This document shows positions 51,139 to 61,612 of a stretch of DNA of 64,000 nt, in pieces. The stretch comes from Gammaproteobacteria bacterium (lineage in GTDB: Bacteria > Pseudomonadota > Gammaproteobacteria > Steroidobacterales > Woeseiaceae), in contig JAHEFG010000005.1 in NCBI GenBank assembly GCA_024640305.1, positions 62,001 through 126,000 of the forward strand, in the 5' to 3' direction. A program made the position numbers and the translations under genes. Positions within the stretch are counted from its first letter, which is position 1. Every line of letters begins with the position of its first letter. The notes under the pieces were generated by a model that did not search any database, was not told where the DNA came from, and saw only the letters and a program-made list of their open reading frames with translations.

Positions 51139-52890
51139 GTGAGCAAAAAATTCGATCCCAGGGTGCGCATCGTTTATGGGCGTCTGTGGCGCTACGTCGT
51201 ACCGCACAAGTTAGTTGCAGTGATCGCTGTTATAGCGATGGCCGCTACCGCGTTCATCGAAGCCGGACTCGTCTATCTGCTTGAACCCCTGATGGATGAA
51301 GCGCTTGTGGCCCAAAACCTCGAGACAGTGCGTTGGATACCGATGGCCTTTGTTGCTATTTTTGCGCTTCGCGGTCTCTCGGGTTTTGCCACTGAATCGT
51401 CGCTCGGCTATATCGGACGAAGTGTTATTAGCTCGCTGCGCCGCGACGTATTCCGCAAGTTCCTGACTTTGCCGACACGCTTCTTCGAGGAGCGAAGCAC
51501 TGGGCCACTGCTTTCGCGGATGACCTACAACGTTGAAATGGTGGCCGAGTCCGTAACCAGTGTAGTTACCATCGCGGTGCGTGACATTCTGACATTGATT
51601 GCGGCGATCGGAGTCATGCTGCTGCAGAGCCCGAAGCTGGCGGGGTTCGTGGCCATCGTATTTCCCGTTGTCGCAGTCATGGTGCGCGTTCTGGGCATCG
51701 CTTTTCGGCGCTATAGCGGTCGAATTCAGGATTCGATTGGTGAAGTTACGCAGGTCACCGAGGAAGCCGTGGTCGGAAATCGTATCGTCAAGATATTTGG
51801 TGGCTACGAATATGAAAAAAATCGCCTGGAGGAAGTAGACGACCGCAACAAGAGACAAAACCTCAAACTCATTCGCACGCGCTCGATGGGCGTCGGTATT
51901 ACGCAGACTATTTTTGGTTTTGGAGTCGCAGGTGTTATTTACATGGCTGGCCGGGAATCGGTCGCCGGTAACCTCAGCCCCGGCCAGTTTATTTCGTTCT
52001 TCAGCGCGATGATGCTGATGTTGCAGCCCGTGAGACGTATTACAAACGTCAATGCGACGTTGCAGCGCGGCGTCGCGGCAGCAGGCAGCTTGTTCGATGT
52101 CATCGATGAACCGGATGAAGTCGACAGCGGTACCAAGACTGTTGACCGCGTGAAGGGATCTGTTGAGTTTCGCAATGTGTGTTTTTCCTACAACGAAGAA
52201 ACCGGTGCAGTTCTCGACGATATTTCCCTCACGGTAGAGCCCGGAGAGTCGCTGGCTATTGTCGGTCATTCAGGTGGTGGCAAATCTACGCTCGTCAGCT
52301 TGTTACCGCGTTTCTATGACGTCGACAGCGGAGAAATTCTGCTCGACGGTATGCCGATTCGTGACTACACACTAAGCAGCCTGAGAAGCAATATTAGCCT
52401 TGTTAGCCAGGACGTGGTGCTGTTCAACGACTCGATTCTAAATAACCTGGCGTACGGCGAGCTGAAAAAATATTCGCATGATGAATTGCTGCAGGCAGCC
52501 GAGGCAGCCCACGTACTCACGTTTGCGAAAGGGCTACCCGACGGTCTGGACACGATGGTGGGGGATCGGGGTGTACTGCTGTCGGGAGGGCAGCGGCAGC
52601 GTATTGCAATAGGGCGAGCCTTGCTCAAGAACGCACCAGTATTAATTCTCGATGAAGCAACATCGTCTCTCGACACGAAGTCGGAGCGTCGGATTCAGCT
52701 GGCGTTGAACGAACTCATGAAGAACCGAACGACACTTGTCATTGCGCATCGATTATCGACTGTCGAACGTGCGGACCGCATTATCGTTCTGGACAAAGGG
52801 CAGGTCGTTGAGTCCGGAAACCACAAGGACTTGCTTGATCGTGACGGGCAATACGCAGCACTGTATCGTATGCAGTTCAGTGAGGAGTGA
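51139..52890 (+). CDS. msbA: Lipid A export permease/ATP-binding protein MsbA
   Basis: MsbA flips lipid A core across the inner membrane. The 583-residue half-transporter (E. coli 582) has six membrane helices followed by an ATPase domain with Walker A IVGHSGGGKSTLVSLLPRFYD, Q-loop SLVSQDVVLFNDSI, signature LLSGGQRQRIAIGRALL, Walker B VLILDEATSSLD and the H-loop VIAHRLSTVERAD. The start is GTG 51139 and the stop overlaps lpxK as GTGA. Confidence 0.97.
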   Translation: MSKKFDPRVRIVYGRLWRYVVPHKLVAVIAVIAMAATAFIEAGLVYLLEPLMDEALVAQNLETVRWIPMAFVAIFALRGLSGFATESSLGYIGRSVISSLRRDVFRKFLTLPTRFFEERSTGPLLSRMTYNVEMVAESVTSVVTIAVRDILTLIAAIGVMLLQSPKLAGFVAIVFPVVAVMVRVLGIAFRRYSGRIQDSIGEVTQVTEEAVVGNRIVKIFGGYEYEKNRLEEVDDRNKRQNLKLIRTRSMGVGITQTIFGFGVAGVIYMAGRESVAGNLSPGQFISFFSAMMLMLQPVRRITNVNATLQRGVAAAGSLFDVIDEPDEVDSGTKTVDRVKGSVEFRNVCFSYNEETGAVLDDISLTVEPGESLAIVGHSGGGKSTLVSLLPRFYDVDSGEILLDGMPIRDYTLSSLRSNISLVSQDVVLFNDSILNNLAYGELKKYSHDELLQAAEAAHVLTFAKGLPDGLDTMVGDRGVLLSGGQRQRIAIGRALLKNAPVLILDEATSSLDTKSERRIQLALNELMKNRTTLVIAHRLSTVERADRIIVLDKGQVVESGNHKDLLDRDGQYAALYRMQFSEE

Positions 52891-53924
52891 CGGCTAGCGG
52901 TATGTATAGATGGCTTCATCGCATGTGGTACGAGGGCGCGCCATCCTATCGCCTTTTGATCCCTTTGAGCGGTGTCTACTGGTTGCTTATTACACTGCGC
53001 CGTTTCCTGTATCAGGTCGGGCTTTTTGGCAGGAAGAAAGCAGTCGTGCCGGTGATTGTCGTAGGCAACATCACCACCGGAGGAACGGGCAAGACCCCTG
53101 TCACAATCTGGCTGGTCAACTCACTAAGCGCGCTAGGCTTCACACCCGGAATCGTGAGTCGCGGCTATGGCGGAAGTCGTTCTTCGACGTCGATGCGTGT
53201 TGACGCGGCCAGCGATCCTGCGGTTGTCGGCGACGAGCCGGTGTTGCTCGCACGACGAACCCAGTGCCCGGTGGTCGTCGACGCCAACCGTGCGAGGGCG
53301 GCACAAATGCTGGCGGACGACGGCGTGGACGTCATCGTTGCCGACGATGGCCTACAGCACTATCGTCTCGAACGAACTTATGAGATTTGCGTTATCGACG
53401 GTTCCCGCGGTCTTGGTAATCGTCTGCTGCTGCCCGCGGGCCCGCTTCGGGAGACGATTGATCGCCTGGAAGAGGTAGATCAGGTCCTGGTGAACGGCCA
53501 GAGACAAGACGAGGGTCCGGATATTACTGCAGGCGAACAGAATGCTATTGAGTTCAACCTGGTTGCAAATGAGGTCGAGCGTCTCAACGGCTCGCTGACC
53601 AGGCCAATCAAGCGATTTTCCGGTACAACTGTGCACGGTGTCGCCGCGATCGGTAATCCGGCGCGGTTCTTCGACATGCTTCGCACGCACGGAATCCAGG
53701 TAATTGAGCACGCTTTTAAAGATCACGCGGCGATCAGTCAGCGTGACGTCAAGTTCGGCGACGACTTCGATGTCCTGATGACCGAAAAAGATGCCGTCAA
53801 GCTTGGTCATGTAGGCTCTGATAAATACTGGGTTGTGCCGGTGGACATGCAGATCGATGCCGTGGCGGCAGGGCCATGGCTGCAACAAATTAAATCGCGC
53901 CTACGTAGCGAAATGGAATCCTGA
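52887..53924 (+). CDS. lpxK: Tetraacyldisaccharide 4'-kinase
   Basis: LpxK phosphorylates the 4' position of the lipid A disaccharide precursor. The 345-residue protein has an N-terminal membrane anchor (YRLLIPLSGVYWLLITLRRF), the unusual P-loop VGNITTGGTGKTP at about 61-73, the SRGYGG motif and VIVADDGLQHYRLERTYEICVID with the DDG-x-QH catalytic and metal-binding residues. GTG 52887 overlaps the msbA stop; ATG 52902 is an alternative. kdsB starts one base inside its stop. Confidence 0.96.
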   Translation: MTASGMYRWLHRMWYEGAPSYRLLIPLSGVYWLLITLRRFLYQVGLFGRKKAVVPVIVVGNITTGGTGKTPVTIWLVNSLSALGFTPGIVSRGYGGSRSSTSMRVDAASDPAVVGDEPVLLARRTQCPVVVDANRARAAQMLADDGVDVIVADDGLQHYRLERTYEICVIDGSRGLGNRLLLPAGPLRETIDRLEEVDQVLVNGQRQDEGPDITAGEQNAIEFNLVANEVERLNGSLTRPIKRFSGTTVHGVAAIGNPARFFDMLRTHGIQVIEHAFKDHAAISQRDVKFGDDFDVLMTEKDAVKLGHVGSDKYWVVPVDMQIDAVAAGPWLQQIKSRLRSEMES

Positions 53925-54670
53925 TGACTGGTTTTGTTGTTGTAATACCATCCAGGTACGCTTCCACCCGCCTGCCGGGTAAGCCGCTGCGTGATATCAA
54001 TGGCAAGACGATGTTGCAGCATGTCTATGAGCGCGGTATGGAAAGCGCCGCCACTGACGTTGTCATTGCGACCGACGACGATCGAATCGCTCTTGCAGCG
54101 GAAGAGTTTGGCGCGCGAGTTTGCATGACGAGCGACCAGCATCGGTCGGGGTCTGAGCGTATTGCTGAGGTTTGCGACGTCATGGACTGGGCAGACAATC
54201 GCATTGTCGTTAATCTCCAGGGTGATGAGCCAACGATGCCGGCTGCTTTGATCAACCAGTGCGCAGCGTTGCTGCAGGACTCGTCAGCGGACATCGCGAC
54301 CCTGGCGTCGCCGCTTCGGGCACTGGAAGATTTGCATAATCCGAATGTTGTCAAAGTCATTGTCGATGATAGTGGCAAGGCAATTTACTTCAGCCGGGCG
54401 GCAATTCCTTTTGCGCGCTCGAAAGATCAGGAAACCGTTGCGCGCGATGTCGCGTTGCATCACCACGGTATCTACGCTTACCGCTGTGGCGTTTTACGCC
54501 AACTTGTTGCGACCGAGCCTTCAAAGCTCGAGGTTGTGGAGCAACTTGAACAACTGCGCGCATTGACCCTTGGTATGTCGATTCGAGTCGGAATCCCAGC
54601 CGAGCGGCCCGGCGCAGGCGTTGATACCGAGGAAGACCTGGCGACTGCGGCTGCGGAGCTAAGGGAATAG
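53924..54670 (+). CDS. kdsB: 3-deoxy-manno-octulosonate cytidylyltransferase
   Basis: KdsB activates Kdo with CTP to CMP-Kdo for transfer to lipid A. The 248-residue protein matches E. coli in length and shows VVIPSRYASTRLPGKPLRDI, VVIATDDDRI, CMTSDQHRSGSERIAEV, VNLQGDEPTMP and HHHGIYAYR. The substrate CTP depends on pyrG and Kdo on kdsA, both in the first operon of the window. It ends the msbA-lpxK-kdsB group five bases before the next gene. Confidence 0.98.
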   Translation: MTGFVVVIPSRYASTRLPGKPLRDINGKTMLQHVYERGMESAATDVVIATDDDRIALAAEEFGARVCMTSDQHRSGSERIAEVCDVMDWADNRIVVNLQGDEPTMPAALINQCAALLQDSSADIATLASPLRALEDLHNPNVVKVIVDDSGKAIYFSRAAIPFARSKDQETVARDVALHHHGIYAYRCGVLRQLVATEPSKLEVVEQLEQLRALTLGMSIRVGIPAERPGAGVDTEEDLATAAAELRE

Positions 54671-54675
54671 CAACG

Positions 54676-55860
54676 GTGAATTGGTACGCATGCGAACGCC
54701 CAAGCCCTGGCGGCCGCCGTTTGATGGTGCAGTGGATGGCGTTTCTGCTGGTGGTTGTATCGCTGGGAAACACTACGGGCGCGAATGCGGCAGATGCTCA
54801 CCCATTGTTTCAGAGCGATGAGGTACTGAAGGCTGTGCTGACAGCGCCGATTGCTCAAGCTTACGATCAGCGGCACCAGGAAGTTCGCATCTACATTCCG
54901 GGTCAGTGGACATACGTCGATGATGATGGCCAGGCGAAGCGACTTGAAGTCTCGATCCGCACGCGTGGAAATTTTCGCCGGGAGTATTGTTCGTTACCGC
55001 CGCTGCAGCTCAACTTCAAGAAGTCGCAGGTAAAGAAGACTCTGTTCGCGGGCCAGGACAAGTTGAAGCTCGTGGCGCCGTGCAAGGGTGGCGTGCGGTT
55101 TCGTCAATACGTCATTCTCGAGTACCTGGCGTATCGCACGCTCGAAATTCTAACGGACTACAGTTTCAAAACTCGGCTATTGCGCCTCACTTACGTCGAC
55201 AGCGAAGAGAAGCTGGAGCCCTGGACTGACATCGTTTTTGTTATTGAGGATGATTCCGATGTCGCGAAGCGTTTGGGTCTCGAAAGACTCAAGATACCCA
55301 AAATTGAGTTCGATGAACTCGATCGTGAAAAAACAGCGCTTGCCGAATTGTTTCAGTTTCTTGTCGCGAACAATGACTACTCGGTGCTCAGGGCAGCAGA
55401 AGGTGAAGATTGCTGCCATAACGTAGAGGTCATGGTGGACGGGGATCCTGACGGACCGCGAATCCCCATCCCGTTTGATTTCGATATGTCAGGGCTGGTC
55501 AATGCTAGTTATGCGGCGCCACCTTCGCACTTGCCGATTCGAGATGTCAGGTTCCCGTACTACACGGGGCTTTGCCAACCGCCTGGCGTTTTGGACGATG
55601 CAATTGCTCACGCGAACTCGAAACGTGAAGAAATTATGGCGCTCTTCAGCAATTCGAAACAGTTGGATCCCAAGGTGAAATCCAAGGCGTTAATGATGGT
55701 CGAAAACTTCTTCAACGTCATAAATACGCCAAAACGAAGAAAGCGGGAACTCGACGATCATTGCCGAGGCCAGAAGCTGCTGGAGGAAATGCTGAACCCG
55801 GCTAAAGATTCGACATCGGTCCATTCGGATCAGTACGAGCCTGTTTCTCCAGCGCCTTAG
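54676..55860 (+). CDS. Exported CotH-kinase-like protein (unrecognised family)
   Basis: The 394-residue protein has a signal peptide after a long N-terminal tail (GTG 54676; ATG 54724 would begin MVQWMAFLLVVVSLGN, cut near Ala39). Its layout follows that of spore-coat CotH kinases: an R-x-RGN segment (SIRTRGNFRREYC, 94-106), a Lys-bearing KLKLVAPCKGG strand (129-139), the FRQYVILEYLAYRTLEILTDYSF helix, a conserved VFVIED strand (187-192), an LVANNDYS loop (229-236), CCHN (247-250) and IPFDFDMSG (265-273), which resembles the metal-binding PWDxD of CotH. The match is by pattern only. It follows kdsB by five bases and overlaps the convergent DUF4956 gene. Confidence 0.62.
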   Translation: MNWYACERPSPGGRRLMVQWMAFLLVVVSLGNTTGANAADAHPLFQSDEVLKAVLTAPIAQAYDQRHQEVRIYIPGQWTYVDDDGQAKRLEVSIRTRGNFRREYCSLPPLQLNFKKSQVKKTLFAGQDKLKLVAPCKGGVRFRQYVILEYLAYRTLEILTDYSFKTRLLRLTYVDSEEKLEPWTDIVFVIEDDSDVAKRLGLERLKIPKIEFDELDREKTALAELFQFLVANNDYSVLRAAEGEDCCHNVEVMVDGDPDGPRIPIPFDFDMSGLVNASYAAPPSHLPIRDVRFPYYTGLCQPPGVLDDAIAHANSKREEIMALFSNSKQLDPKVKSKALMMVENFFNVINTPKRRKRELDDHCRGQKLLEEMLNPAKDSTSVHSDQYEPVSPAP

Positions 55861-56590
55861 CTGCTTTTGCCCGTTTGCGCCGAATTTCTCTTTGCACGAC
55901 ATGTTGCGATTCAAGCCCATCGCCAAAAGCGCAAACGGCAACTGCCGCGTAATTGAAGAACACCGTCAGTACAACGGCTATTTCCAGTGACTTGATTCCG
56001 GCAGCGATACCGACACCGACTGCGGATAGAATAAACAAAGTGTCGAAAGTGTCGCTGAGGGCTCTGCGGAATCGCACGCCTGCGACAATACCGGCAAGGC
56101 TGAAGGCCAGCGCGAGGCTGTGCTGCACCACGGTGACAATTCCAGCGACGACCGCAGGCAAGACCAGCGCCGTCGTGTCGATAGAGTGGTCGTAGACACT
56201 GTCGGTATGTATTGACTTGTAAACCCACGAAACGGGCAACATTAATACCAGCGTCGCTGCCATCGCATAGAACAGCGACAGCGCTCCCCTAAGCCATGCA
56301 GGTCCTCTCGCCAGCCGCGCTTTCGAGGAATCGGTGACGATCTGCTCGATCTCCTCGTCGTCTGCACTGAGAAACGCCTCCTCGAGGTCGTACGAGTAAG
56401 TGCTGCCGTAGCTGGCTATATCGCCAACTCCGCCAAGCGGCAGAGTATCAACGATATTCGGGAAAGCCATGACAAGGATTGCGACCAGCCCTGCCAACGT
56501 CGCATAGTAGATCGTTAGTTTTACCAGCACCCGACGCAAGATCTTGCGATGGGATGCGAGTTGACTGGCCCAGCGTGTATTTTCATCCAT
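55802..56590 (-). CDS. DUF4956 family membrane protein
   Basis: The 262-residue protein has an N-terminal membrane helix (VKLTIYYATLAGLVAILVM), a periplasmic or cytoplasmic loop of about 60 residues, a second helix (LSLFYAMAATLVLMLPVSWV) and the DUF4956 core: ALVLPAVVAGIVTVVQHSLA, then FSLAGIVAGVRFRRALSD and the ILSAVGVGIAAGIKSLEIAV helices, and a basic C-terminal tail. In other phyla this family occurs with CotH kinases and VTC-type polyphosphate polymerase domains. Here its 3' end overlaps that of the CotH-like gene by 59 bases. No VTC gene is in the window. Confidence 0.8.
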   Translation of the reverse strand: MDENTRWASQLASHRKILRRVLVKLTIYYATLAGLVAILVMAFPNIVDTLPLGGVGDIASYGSTYSYDLEEAFLSADDEEIEQIVTDSSKARLARGPAWLRGALSLFYAMAATLVLMLPVSWVYKSIHTDSVYDHSIDTTALVLPAVVAGIVTVVQHSLALAFSLAGIVAGVRFRRALSDTFDTLFILSAVGVGIAAGIKSLEIAVVLTVFFNYAAVAVCAFGDGLESQHVVQREIRRKRAKAAKALEKQARTDPNGPMSNL

Positions 56591-57708: not shown

Positions 57709-58368
57709 CTAAGCGGAATTGGTGCTATCCAATTGTTCTTCCGGAGCAGCTTGTAAGAAGCCCTCGAGATTGTTACAGGTATCCGTGATGGCGACGAGAC
57801 GCGGATAATCATCGAGCTGCACTTTGAAGCGGCGCGCATTGTAAACCTGCGGTATCAGGCACGTGTCTGCGAATGACACTGATTCGCCGAATACGAATTG
57901 TCCGGCATCCGCATATTCAGTCGCGACAGTTTCCGCGGCCTTAAAGCCTTCGTGAATCCAGTGCGCGTACCAGGTGTTGAATTGTTCGTCGGATACGCCC
58001 AGTTCGCCTTTCAGATATTGCATGACGCGCAGATTATTGAGCGGGTGAATGTCGCAACATATCGAATTGCAGAAAGAACGAACCGCAGCGCGCTGCTGTG
58101 CATCAACCGGAAGCAGAGGCGGTTTCGGATAGGCTTCCTCAAGGTACTCGAGGATCGCGAGTGACTGGCCTGTACTGAAATTGCCATCTTCGAGAAACGG
58201 TACGAGCATCTGCGGATTGCGTGCGCGGTAATCAGCCTCGCGATGTTCAGCGACACCAGGGAGCAAAGACACTGGCACGATCTCGTGATCGAGACCCTTG
58301 AGATTGAGCGCGATACGGACGCGGTACGCCGCGGAAGAACGCCAGTAACTATAGAGCTTTATCGTCAC
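57709..58368 (-). CDS. maiA: Maleylacetoacetate isomerase
   Basis: MaiA isomerises maleylacetoacetate to fumarylacetoacetate with glutathione, the penultimate step of tyrosine breakdown. The 219-residue zeta-class glutathione transferase has the N-terminal signature LYSYWRSSAAYRVRIALNLKG (SS-x4-RVRIAL), LEYLEEAYPKPPLLP, and the C-terminal FVFGESVSFADTCLIPQVYNARRF block. The start is GTG at 58366-58368. It is the last gene of the hpd-VOC-fah-maiA operon and lies nine bases from the fah stop. Confidence 0.95.
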   Translation of the reverse strand: MTIKLYSYWRSSAAYRVRIALNLKGLDHEIVPVSLLPGVAEHREADYRARNPQMLVPFLEDGNFSTGQSLAILEYLEEAYPKPPLLPVDAQQRAAVRSFCNSICCDIHPLNNLRVMQYLKGELGVSDEQFNTWYAHWIHEGFKAAETVATEYADAGQFVFGESVSFADTCLIPQVYNARRFKVQLDDYPRLVAITDTCNNLEGFLQAAPEEQLDSTNSA

Positions 58369-58377
58369 CCGGGCATT

Positions 58378-59385
58378 CTATCCGCTATAGCGCACAACTG
58401 TCTGATCGATTGCGCCAAAAACTGATTCGCCGTCGGCGTTGCGCATCTCAATGCGAATGCGATCACCGAACTTCATGAACGATGTGGCCGGACTGCCATC
58501 CTGAATTGTTTCTATCGTGCGCTGCTCAGCTATGCACGAGTAACCGACGCCGCCTTCGCTGACGGGTTTTCCGGGGCCGCCATCAAGTTTGTTCGAGACA
58601 GTGCCGGAGCCGATGATCGTGCCAGCACCCAGCGGGCGTGATTTTGCGGCGTGCGCAACGAGTTGGCTGAAATCGAAGGTCATGTCGATACCAGCCTCTG
58701 GCTTACCGAATAATTCGTCATTGAGCGTCGACAACAACGGCAGGTGCACTTTATTGTCGGCCCATGCAGCGCCGAGCTCATCGGGCGTGACGGCGATTGG
58801 CGAAAACGCGCTGGACGGTTTGGACTGGAAGAAGCCGAAACCCTTGCCCAACTCGCCCGGGATTAGTCCGCGCAGTGACACGTCGTTGACGATCATGATC
58901 AGGCGGATGTGCTGGCCGGCGTCTGCTGCACTGACGCCCATAGGCACATCGTCGGTAATCACGGCCACTTCGGCCTCGAAGTCGATACCCCAGGCTTCGT
59001 CCGCCATCGGGATATCGTCTCGCGGTGCGAGGAATGAGTCGGAGCCGCCCTGGTACATGAGTGGGTCGGTCCAAAAGCTGTCCGGCATCTCGGCGCCACG
59101 TGCCTTGCGGACAAGTTCAACGTGGTTTACATACGCCGAACCATCGGCCCACTGATAGGCACGCGGTAACGGCGATTCACAGGCATTCTGGTCGAAAGTT
59201 TCGCCGCTGTTTCCGGCTTCGAGCTGTGCTGCAATTGCCTCGAGCTGTGGGCGGTTTTGCGACCAGTCATCGAGCGCCGCCTGCAGAGTGGGTGCCACGC
59301 TGGCAGCCGATGCGTATCGGCTCAGGTCGCGCGATACGACGACGAGTTGGCCATCACGGCCGTTCTTGAGTGTTGCGAGTTTCAC
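58378..59385 (-). CDS. fahA: Fumarylacetoacetate hydrolase family protein
   Basis: The 335-residue protein is of the short bacterial FAH type that splits fumarylacetoacetate into fumarate and acetoacetate. Seen: WADGSAYVNHVELVRKARG, the metal and substrate region WGIDFEAEVAVITDDVP with the conserved Glu pair, the MIVNDVSLRGLIPGELGKGFGFFQSKP segment and GAGTIIGSGTVSN. Position between maiA and hpd makes the final hydrolase of tyrosine breakdown the likely role; related FAH-fold hydrolases act on other diketo acids. Confidence 0.93.
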   Translation of the reverse strand: MKLATLKNGRDGQLVVVSRDLSRYASAASVAPTLQAALDDWSQNRPQLEAIAAQLEAGNSGETFDQNACESPLPRAYQWADGSAYVNHVELVRKARGAEMPDSFWTDPLMYQGGSDSFLAPRDDIPMADEAWGIDFEAEVAVITDDVPMGVSAADAGQHIRLIMIVNDVSLRGLIPGELGKGFGFFQSKPSSAFSPIAVTPDELGAAWADNKVHLPLLSTLNDELFGKPEAGIDMTFDFSQLVAHAAKSRPLGAGTIIGSGTVSNKLDGGPGKPVSEGGVGYSCIAEQRTIETIQDGSPATSFMKFGDRIRIEMRNADGESVFGAIDQTVVRYSG

Positions 59386-59391
59386 TATTTA

Positions 59392-59928
59392 CTACCCCCG
59401 GAATTCGAGCTCATGCAGCCAGGCCGCGTGGCGTGGAGCCTTCTTCGTGCGGCTCCATTCCTCAAGCATATCGGGTGCGACACGTTTGAGCTCGTCAATT
59501 TGTTCTTGTGTTTGCGTGTTGGCAACGAGCTCGAGTCGGTGGCCGTTCGGGTCAAAAAAGTAGATTGACTGAAAAATGCCGTGATTGGTTGGTCCGATTA
59601 CGTCGAGTCCCTCGGCTTCGATATGCTCTTTCGCTGCGAGCAACGCGTCGTAATCCTCAAGTTCGAATGCCAGGTGCTGTACCCACTCCGGTGTGTTGTG
59701 ATCGCGATCCATCTGGGGTCGCGTCGGTAATTCGAAGAATGCGAGCACATTGCCCATGCCGGCATCGAGAAACACATGCATGTATGGGTCAGGTTCCTTT
59801 GTCGACGGAACCTGGTCTTCAGCGAAAGCGAGCATGAATTCCATATTCAGCACGCGTTCGTAGAACTCCACGGTTTCCTTAGCGTCGTTACAACGATAAG
59901 CCACATGGTGAATTCTTTTGAGTTTCAT
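59392..59928 (-). CDS. VOC-family metalloprotein in the tyrosine operon
   Basis: The 178-residue protein has two beta-alpha-beta-beta-beta modules of the vicinal oxygen chelate fold. Possible metal ligands are in all four expected strands: His8 or His9 in IHHVAYRC, Glu in VLAFFELPT, His in [10 protein letters not shown] and Glu in GHRLELVAN. The last 35 residues ([19 protein letters not shown]) are an extra tail. It overlaps hpd by four bases, so it is part of the tyrosine operon. Substrate is unknown; glyoxalase-like isomerase or extradiol dioxygenase activity are both possible. Confidence 0.82.
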
Positions 59929-61013
59929 TGTGCCTCCTTCTGCTCGCCGACGATTCCACGGGCTATTTGATCGCGTTCAATGGACTCGAACAGTGCCTTG
60001 AAATTTCCTTCGCCAAATCCGTCATCTTTCTTGCGCTGGATGAACTCAAAGAATACCGGGCCGAGCATAGTGTCCGAAAAAATCTGTAACAACAGGCGCG
60101 GGTCGCCATCTTCAGTTGAACCATCCAGCAAAATACCGCGTGACTGTAACTCGTCAACCGGTTCGCCGTGATTCGGAAGCCTGTCTTCGAGCATGTCGTA
60201 GTAGGTGTCCGGCGGAGGGGTCATGAATGTCAGGCCACGCTCTTTGAGCCGATCCCAGCACGTGAACAGGTCGTCGCAACTCAGGGCAATGTGCTGGATG
60301 CCTTCACCGTTGAATGCCATCAGGAATTCTTCGATCTGTCCTGTGCCTTGCGATGCTTCCTCATTCAGAGGGATGCGAATCCGATTATCCGGCGCGGCCA
60401 TCGCTTTGGAGAACAGACCGGTGTATTCGCCCTTGATATCGAAATAGCGATACTCACGAAAGTTGAATAGCTTTTCATAGAAGTTCGCCCAGTAGCCCAT
60501 GCGGCCGCGGTAGACATTGTGCGTAAGGTGATCGATTTCCTTGAAGCCGCAGCCCTCAGGGTGCCGGTCGACACCATCGAAGAATTCGAAGTCGATGTCA
60601 TAAAAGGTATTGCCCTTGGTGTAGCGGTCGATCAGGTACAGTGGCGCGCCGCCGATGCCCCGGATGGCCGGCAAGCGCAATTCCATCGGACCGGTTGGAA
60701 TATCGATCGGTTGTGCGCCAAGTTGCAGAGCCCGGTTGTAGGCGAAATGCGCATCTTTGACACGGAATGCCATGCCGCATGCAGAGGGGCCATGTTCCTG
60801 CGCAAAATAGGCCGCGAGGCTATTCGGCTCGGCGTTTAAAATGAAGTTGATGTCGCCCTGGCGATACAGCGTCACGTTCTTCGAGCGATGGCGTGCAACG
60901 GCGTCGAAGCCGAGCAGGTGAAAGACTGATTCGAGGACGCCGGGTTCGGGCGAGGCGAACTCGACGAACTCAAATCCGTCCAGACCCATTGGGTTGTCGA
61001 TTTGCTCAGACAT
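59925..61013 (-). CDS. hpd: 4-hydroxyphenylpyruvate dioxygenase
   Basis: HPPD converts 4-hydroxyphenylpyruvate to homogentisate. The 362-residue protein (Pseudomonas about 357) has two VOC modules; the iron ligands are the His in [13 protein letters not shown], the His in [10 protein letters not shown] and the Glu in [11 protein letters not shown]. The product-release helix [18 protein letters not shown] is also present. ATG 61013 is chosen inside a longer frame because it gives [20 protein letters not shown]. It heads the leftward operon and faces the Lrp-type regulator across 134 bases. Confidence 0.97.
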
Positions 61014-61101
61014 GTAATGCTCCCGCGTAACAAAACTTTTCGACAGTATGCGCATTTTCTACCGATTTTGTGTTCATAAATGATCTATTTAGCACATATT
61101 C

Positions 61102-61117
61102 TGCAACATAAATTGCA
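61102..61117. promoter_or_regulatory. Dyad between hpd and its divergent Lrp/AsnC regulator
   Basis: TGCAA-N6-TTGCA forms a perfect 5-base dyad roughly midway between the two start codons. Lrp/AsnC regulators commonly bind short dyads of about 15 bases in such divergent regions, so this is a candidate operator. The call rests on symmetry and place. Confidence 0.45.
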
Positions 61118-61147
61118 AAGATTTGAAGATATTGACAGTATGGGGTC

Positions 61148-61612
61148 ATGCAACTATCAAGAGCCGATCATCTGTTACTCGACGCCTTACAAAGTGACGC
61201 GACGCGCAGTCAGAGTGAGCTTGCCGAAATCGCCGGCATGTCACGGAGTTCTGTCTGGCGACGAATCCGGGACTTCGAAGAAAGCGGGCTCATAACCGCC
61301 CAGGTCGCGCTGCTGAACCCCCAGCAGGCCGGGTTTCAGATCCAGGTGTTGTTATCAGTCGCGATGACCGAGCATACGGACGAGAACAGGCAGGATTTCG
61401 AACGTCATGTTGCATTGCTGCCCGAAGTCACAGAGTGTTTTTCAGTGTCGGGTGAACGGGACTACGTACTGCATGTAGTCGTTCGTGACATGGACGCCTA
61501 CAACCAGTTTCTTAACGCACAAGTACTCAAGCACCCGGCCGTGCGTTCCGCCAGTTCCACGTTCGTCTTACGCCGTGTCAAATACACGACAATGATGCCG
61601 CTGAAGCCTTAG
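61148..61612 (+). CDS. Lrp/AsnC family transcriptional regulator
   Basis: The 154-residue protein has an N-terminal helix-turn-helix (LLLDALQSDATRSQSELAEIAGMSRSSVWRRIRDFEESGLI, about 9-49) and a C-terminal ligand-binding RAM domain (VTECFSVSGERDYVLHVVVRDMDAYNQFL). These regulators sense amino acids. Its placement divergent to hpd suggests control of tyrosine catabolism by tyrosine or a related amino acid. It converges on dapA with 18 bases between the stops. Confidence 0.9.
   Translation: MQLSRADHLLLDALQSDATRSQSELAEIAGMSRSSVWRRIRDFEESGLITAQVALLNPQQAGFQIQVLLSVAMTEHTDENRQDFERHVALLPEVTECFSVSGERDYVLHVVVRDMDAYNQFLNAQVLKHPAVRSASSTFVLRRVKYTTMMPLKP

Follow-up and report, generated by a model that had tools for sequence, protein, structure and literature searches.

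The window analysed here, meaning the whole 64,000-nucleotide stretch of DNA from a marine gammaproteobacterium, contains two adjacent genes that probably form a two-gene module, in which a periplasmic CotH-type protein kinase works with a DUF4956 partner in the inner membrane. This module is a variant of the known CotH/VTC/DUF4956 association, and its VTC-less pairing is apparently undescribed. In Firmicutes and Actinobacteria, genes for CotH, polyphosphate polymerase, and DUF4956 are grouped beside Pel polysaccharide operons (PMC7112168). The literature searched, which included few subscription journals, contained no description of the diverged CotH-like family, of its VTC-less pairing with DUF4956, or of the phosphatase that accompanies some of its members.

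Gene limits and selection at the locus

The CotH-like exported kinase-fold protein is encoded on the forward strand (54676..55860) and the DUF4956 membrane protein (262 aa) on the reverse strand (55802..56590). The two ORFs lie tail to tail with 59 bp in common at their 3′ ends (55802..55860), which agrees with an earlier sequence-only reading of this DNA, all of whose named motifs are also present. The CotH-like ORF starts 5 bp past kdsB, one of the msbA, lpxK, and kdsB neighbours (51139..54670, forward strand), which were named in that reading and from their sequences. ORF maps were drawn mechanically, without a gene caller, and neighbour families were named by Pfam or by eye.

A sister locus (L008), whose CotH-like protein is 89-91% identical to that of the window, allowed selection to be estimated. 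The CotH-like gene gave dN 0.040 and dS 0.58 (dN/dS ~0.07), the DUF4956 gene dN 0.046 and dS 0.58 (dN/dS ~0.08), and kdsB similar values (dN 0.042, dS 0.58). Because these ratios are low and equal to that of kdsB, both ORFs are under purifying selection and are not chance reading frames. The 394-residue protein first noted corresponds to an ORF that does open at GTG 54676; on sequence grounds, ATG 54724 is the likelier start, giving 378 aa, because about the first 12 codons after the GTG are poorly conserved in the sister locus, where conservation starts at 'GRRLM'. The length of the overlap stems from a single TAG/TCG difference, as the TCG of the window is a TAG in L008, whose overlap is 17 bp. 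The 59-bp overlap thus appears to be recent in origin, and a sequencing error at the TCG base of the window is possible. Further along the window (57709-61612), naming by eye suggests tyrosine-degradation genes, with ORFs resembling maleylacetoacetate isomerase, fumarylacetoacetase, glyoxalase, and HPPD and, on the opposite strand, an ORF for an Lrp/AsnC-type regulator.

Fold and catalytic residues of the CotH-like protein

At the level of single-sequence searches, the protein stands outside the recognized family: it scored 14.2 bits against Pfam CotH (PF08757), below the cut-off of 23.8, had no NCBIfam match, and retrieved no CotH when solved structures were searched by sequence with the protein and its profile. 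Pfam CotH matches were obtained for 2 of 17 family members, and one relative (L014, 38-39% identical) exceeded the cut-off with 27.9 bits. An AlphaFold (AF2) model based on 17 members of the family, taken from the window and from other genomes, reached a pLDDT of 86.8 and a pTM of 0.83. Its best structural match in VIA-align was Bacillus cereus CotH (5jd9; Z 20.6, 3.2 Å over 268 residues), followed by 5jda (Z 20.3, 3.2 Å over 268-269 residues). The next family was represented by Helicobacter pylori CtkA at Z 12.9, all others lying at or below this value; FAM20C, PI4KII (~12), HipA/HipT, and CtkA fell within Z 11-13. The CotH match appeared only in this VIA-align second look, whereas Foldseek of the model against the PDB listed nothing at or below E 0.001; Foldseek against viral models returned proteins named CotH among its top matches.

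Profile-profile comparison adds a link to CotH that is suggestive only. With trimmed domains, it gave a probability of 59% and a pairwise E of 9e-5, and in a full-length profile alignment the HN and PFDFD motifs of the window protein land on the HN and PWDYD of CotH. The untrimmed comparison with full-length proteobacterial CotH proteins yielded nothing, because the CotH alignment carried long unrelated regions. The CotH kinase fold proposed from motif order alone is borne out by structure prediction, which gives a fold of the protein kinase type; judged on the model, the protein is CotH-like by fold and residues, yet outside the Pfam family as drawn.

The residues expected of a CotH-type active site are strongly conserved. 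R97, G98, E149, E191, H248, N249, D268, and D270 occur in 75/75 family members and K131 in 74/75. The RGNFR motif (54964..54978, forward strand, as for the sites that follow) contains R97, G98, and R101, which are conserved in 75/75. PFDFD at 266-270 (55471..55485) is the counterpart of CotH PWDYD, with D268 as the metal Asp (D251 in Bacillus subtilis), and H248-N249 (55417..55422) is the counterpart of CotH HN, at the position of PKA N171. D234 (55375..55377; Asp in 67/75, Glu in 8/75) is the counterpart of the catalytic Asp of CotH (B. subtilis D228); it was assigned by motif alignment to 5JD9 because the profile alignment set a gap at that site. The 5JD9 sequence reads NFDGFVHNY...PWDYD. 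Inactivation of B. subtilis CotH is known for changes at D228 and D251 (PMC7821199), which are spaced as are the NFD Asp and the first of the two Asp residues in PWDYD. CotH is also described in a review as keeping counterparts of PKA D166, N171, and D184 (PMC12189002). The Asp pair 268/270 singled out for mutation in the sequence-only reading was therefore rightly chosen but incomplete, since by alignment to 5JD9 D234 and N249 also appear to belong to the site.

The eight copies with Glu at 234 all belong to a single clade of nine members that lacks DUF4956 neighbours; among them is the CotH-like copy on contig C28 of the genome carrying the window (L090:6947-8056; the others are L095, L128, L130, L133, L136, L138, and L139). 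From their sequences, these Glu-for-Asp copies may be pseudokinases or altered enzymes.

For export, a probable Sec signal peptide was read from the sequence at residues 17-38 (54724..54789, forward strand), as a hydrophobic stretch followed by ANA|AD, and the model predicts a helix at residues 14-31. Cys105 and Cys136 are invariant in 75/75 members, a feature that would suit a secreted protein.

The DUF4956 protein and its co-occurrence with the CotH-like family

The assignment of the second ORF to DUF4956 holds, on a borderline score for the window protein itself: searched alone, it scored 30.0 bits against PF16316 (cut-off 30.6), and in the genome search the same gene gave 30.5-30.8 bits and was counted over the cut-off. 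PF16316 was matched by 10/10 relatives, the best at 9.4e-12. A conserved core, SLALAFSLAGIVAGVRFR, occupies residues 158-175 (56066..56119, reverse strand). The structural model (pLDDT 67, pTM 0.57, no PDB match) is of too low confidence for a statement on the fold. No function for DUF4956 was found in the literature searched, where a gene-cluster study is among the few papers that mention it.

Co-occurrence was surveyed in 60 genomes of the genus and order. CotH-like genes were present in 36, DUF4956 genes in 36, and both in 35 (Fisher p 2.4e-14, uncorrected for phylogeny); the exceptions were G042, with a CotH-like gene only, and G054, with DUF4956 beside a VTC gene. These relatives include metagenome-assembled genomes, and many are incomplete. 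DUF4956 hits lay less than 4 kb from a CotH-like hit in 52 of 55 cases, and 48 of these 52 pairs were convergent, the other 4 being encoded on one strand, so that the convergent layout, initially regarded as unusual for partners, is the usual arrangement. The CotH-like family has five copies in the genome carrying the window (2.8 Mb, 78% complete), and DUF4956 has two, each of which adjoins a CotH-like gene convergently. A separate even draw of 299 genomes of the phylum contained the CotH-like family only in this genome and in G266, both with a convergent DUF4956 gene, which in G266 lies within about 100 bp; the two families are thus adjacent in related genomes and in the broad phylum sample alike. 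Of the two outcomes that the sequence-only reading said would refute it, a fold unrelated to protein kinases and a lack of co-occurrence in related genomes, neither was obtained. The pair also recurs in Alphaproteobacteria. For 44 pairs, the distance matrices of the two families are correlated (r 0.84; 0/2000 permutations as high), a co-variation to which shared descent alone contributes. Conversely, 41/93 CotH-like hits have no DUF4956 alongside, and adjacency is not obligatory for every CotH-like paralogue.

Several individual loci depart from this pattern. Two genes (clusters c61 and c59) lie on either side of a CotH-like copy in the genome of the window (L089:8293-10183) and likewise of a DUF4956 gene standing alone in G019 (L103:4414-6955), loci that look as if the two families had swapped places. 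G027 has an extra DUF4956 gene (L084:1643-2254) whose nearest CotH-like gene is 7.7 kb away; the same contig carries a same-strand DUF4956/CotH-like pair beside an outer-membrane beta-barrel gene.

Module types, gene neighbourhoods, and the partner phosphatase

The type found in the window, module A, forms one clade (support 98/92) with both genes adjacent. It lies beside msbA-lpxK-kdsB in the genome of the window and in G013, beside a peroxiredoxin-like gene set in some other genomes, and beside zinc-transporter-like genes in others. The pair is therefore kept while its neighbours change, and the lipopolysaccharide neighbours are lineage-specific. Module B (contig C40 of the same genome) has the order phosphatase, CotH-like, alpha/beta hydrolase-like, DUF4956, and PfkB-type kinase genes. 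In the alphaproteobacterial loci L017-L019, the phosphatase and CotH-like ORFs are on the same strand with a 4-bp overlap, together with DUF4956 and a phytase-like/SdiA-regulated protein or a relative of it.

These arrangements bear on the view that the two genes are unlinked neighbours held together by vertical inheritance. Convergent genes with overlapping 3′ ends form no operon, and module A is a single clade, as that view would expect; against it, the pair recurs in several orientations, three module types, and varied gene contexts, extends to other families and to Alphaproteobacteria, and DUF4956 is absent from those of the 60 relatives that have neither a CotH-like gene nor VTC. Mere neighbourhood is accordingly a very improbable explanation.

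An exported PPP-type phosphatase is encoded in many paralogous CotH-like loci, though not next to the pair in the window. Its GDxHG-type, GDxxDRG, and GNHE motifs are conserved, it has a Metallophos match, and its closest solved protein is the Shewanella protein-tyrosine phosphatase 2z72 (E 7e-33). In L101, module A's sister, the phosphatase gene separates the CotH-like gene from the DUF4956 gene, so module A may have lost it. An extra C-terminal domain occurs in gammaproteobacterial phosphatases (L088:4149-5963 and its relatives L135, L013, L024, and L101) and is missing from the alphaproteobacterial ones. Our impression is that this domain resembles a degenerate FAM20-like kinase, on account of an FDxLxxN-xR stretch and the short hydrophobic motif after it; a Pfam search of the domain gave no match backing this idea.

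The same observations allow the kinase fold to be read as serving another transfer in envelope assembly, such as phosphorylation of a lipid, sugar, polysaccharide, or metabolite, or nucleotidyl transfer. The substrate, lipid-linked or a polymer, would then be presented by DUF4956, and the phosphatase would act on that same non-protein substrate. Lipid kinases are among the relatives of the CotH fold (PI4KII, as above), the Gram-positive gene clusters lie with Pel operons (PMC7112168), the phytase-like/SdiA-regulated propeller adjoins some loci, and the window genes come after lipopolysaccharide genes. However, the protein kinase CotH is the closest fold by far, the phosphatase is nearest a protein-tyrosine phosphatase, and the lipopolysaccharide context is not conserved; we regard such a transfer as rather unlikely. 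The placement after msbA-lpxK-kdsB described in the sequence-only reading is real in the window, but the lipopolysaccharide connection hinted at there found no support, as most other loci of the pair have different neighbours. A lipopolysaccharide function was dropped as the leading idea because the neighbours of the pair vary.

Absence of VTC and the question of polyphosphate

The earlier description of the module as lacking VTC extends well beyond the window: none of the 35 genomes that carry both genes has a VTC, the 78% complete genome of the window included. The only VTC among the 60 genomes is that of G054, next to DUF4956 and without a CotH-like gene. In the 299-genome draw, G096 and G160 combine a genuine CotH with neighbouring VTC-type and DUF4956 genes.

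A polyphosphate system minus VTC may nevertheless be envisaged, with DUF4956 as a conduit for, or sensor of, polyphosphate and the CotH-like protein drawing on Ppk-made polyphosphate as donor or substrate. The canonical clusters in other Proteobacteria (G096, G160) and the VTC-DUF4956 pair of G054 are consistent with this, as is the restriction of DUF4956, among the 60 relatives, to genomes with a CotH-like gene or VTC. The absence of VTC from 35/35 relatives with the pair, and of any pointer to polyphosphate in the neighbourhoods examined, argues against it, and we consider it distinctly improbable.

A further locus (L180:3018-5579) carries DUF4956 and an apparent VTC, no CotH, and downstream a phytase-like propeller (cluster c38) of the same family as that beside alphaproteobacterial CotH-like genes.

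Proposed mechanism and significance

In the preferred reading, that of a periplasmic kinase with an inner-membrane partner, the CotH-like protein would be exported through its Sec signal peptide. Judging by the model and by conservation, it would adopt the CotH kinase fold and retain the catalytic Asp, both metal Asp residues, and the Asn of HN, and would probably phosphorylate Ser, Thr, or Tyr residues of envelope proteins. Co-occurrence, adjacency, and co-divergence suggest DUF4956 to be its dedicated partner in the inner membrane, where it might, most likely, anchor the kinase or supply something it needs, for example a phosphoryl donor. In the paralogous system on C40, where the genes and motifs are present, the exported PPP-type phosphatase would reverse the reaction.

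The periplasm is thought to be without ATP, which poses a phosphoryl donor problem for an exported kinase. A more ambitious and speculative proposal, which we hold to be unlikely as a whole, is a Gram-negative periplasmic protein-phosphorylation system composed of an exported CotH-type kinase, a PPP-type phosphatase, and DUF4956 carrying or presenting the donor where there is no ATP. How a phosphoryl donor is supplied to kinases exported to the periplasm is a general question that bears on this module. A VTC-less kinase-DUF4956 module, in some cases with a phosphatase, takes VTC polyphosphate synthesis out of the picture and allows the role of DUF4956 to be tested in a simple setting of two or three genes.

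Comparison with known systems

FAM20C, PI4KII, HipA/HipT, and CtkA belong to the same broad atypical kinase superfamily as the window protein, but their structural match is far below that of CotH and their cellular setting differs from its own. With the CotH kinases (PF08757; 5JD9, 5JDA), the window protein shares the fold, the RG motif, the catalytic Asp, HN, and the P-aromatic-D-aromatic-D motif, at 13% identity; unlike them, it has a signal peptide, the invariant Cys105/Cys136, and about ten extra residues between the catalytic Asp and HN relative to 5JD9. Its setting is the Gram-negative envelope rather than the spore coat, and its partners also differ, being DUF4956 and, in paralogous loci, the phosphatase. 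That phosphatase has its closest solved relative in the cold-active protein-tyrosine phosphatase of Shewanella (2z72, 1v73), from which the gammaproteobacterial form is distinguished by its extra C-terminal domain of ~200 residues without a Pfam match. In the CotH-VTC-DUF4956 clusters of Firmicutes, Actinobacteria, and some Proteobacteria (L176-L178), a CotH-fold gene lies beside DUF4956, as in the window. The window-type module differs from these clusters in lacking VTC, in a CotH-like protein too diverged for Pfam, and in its usually convergent layout, whereas the paralogous loci add to the association genes for a protein phosphatase and for an alpha/beta hydrolase-like protein.
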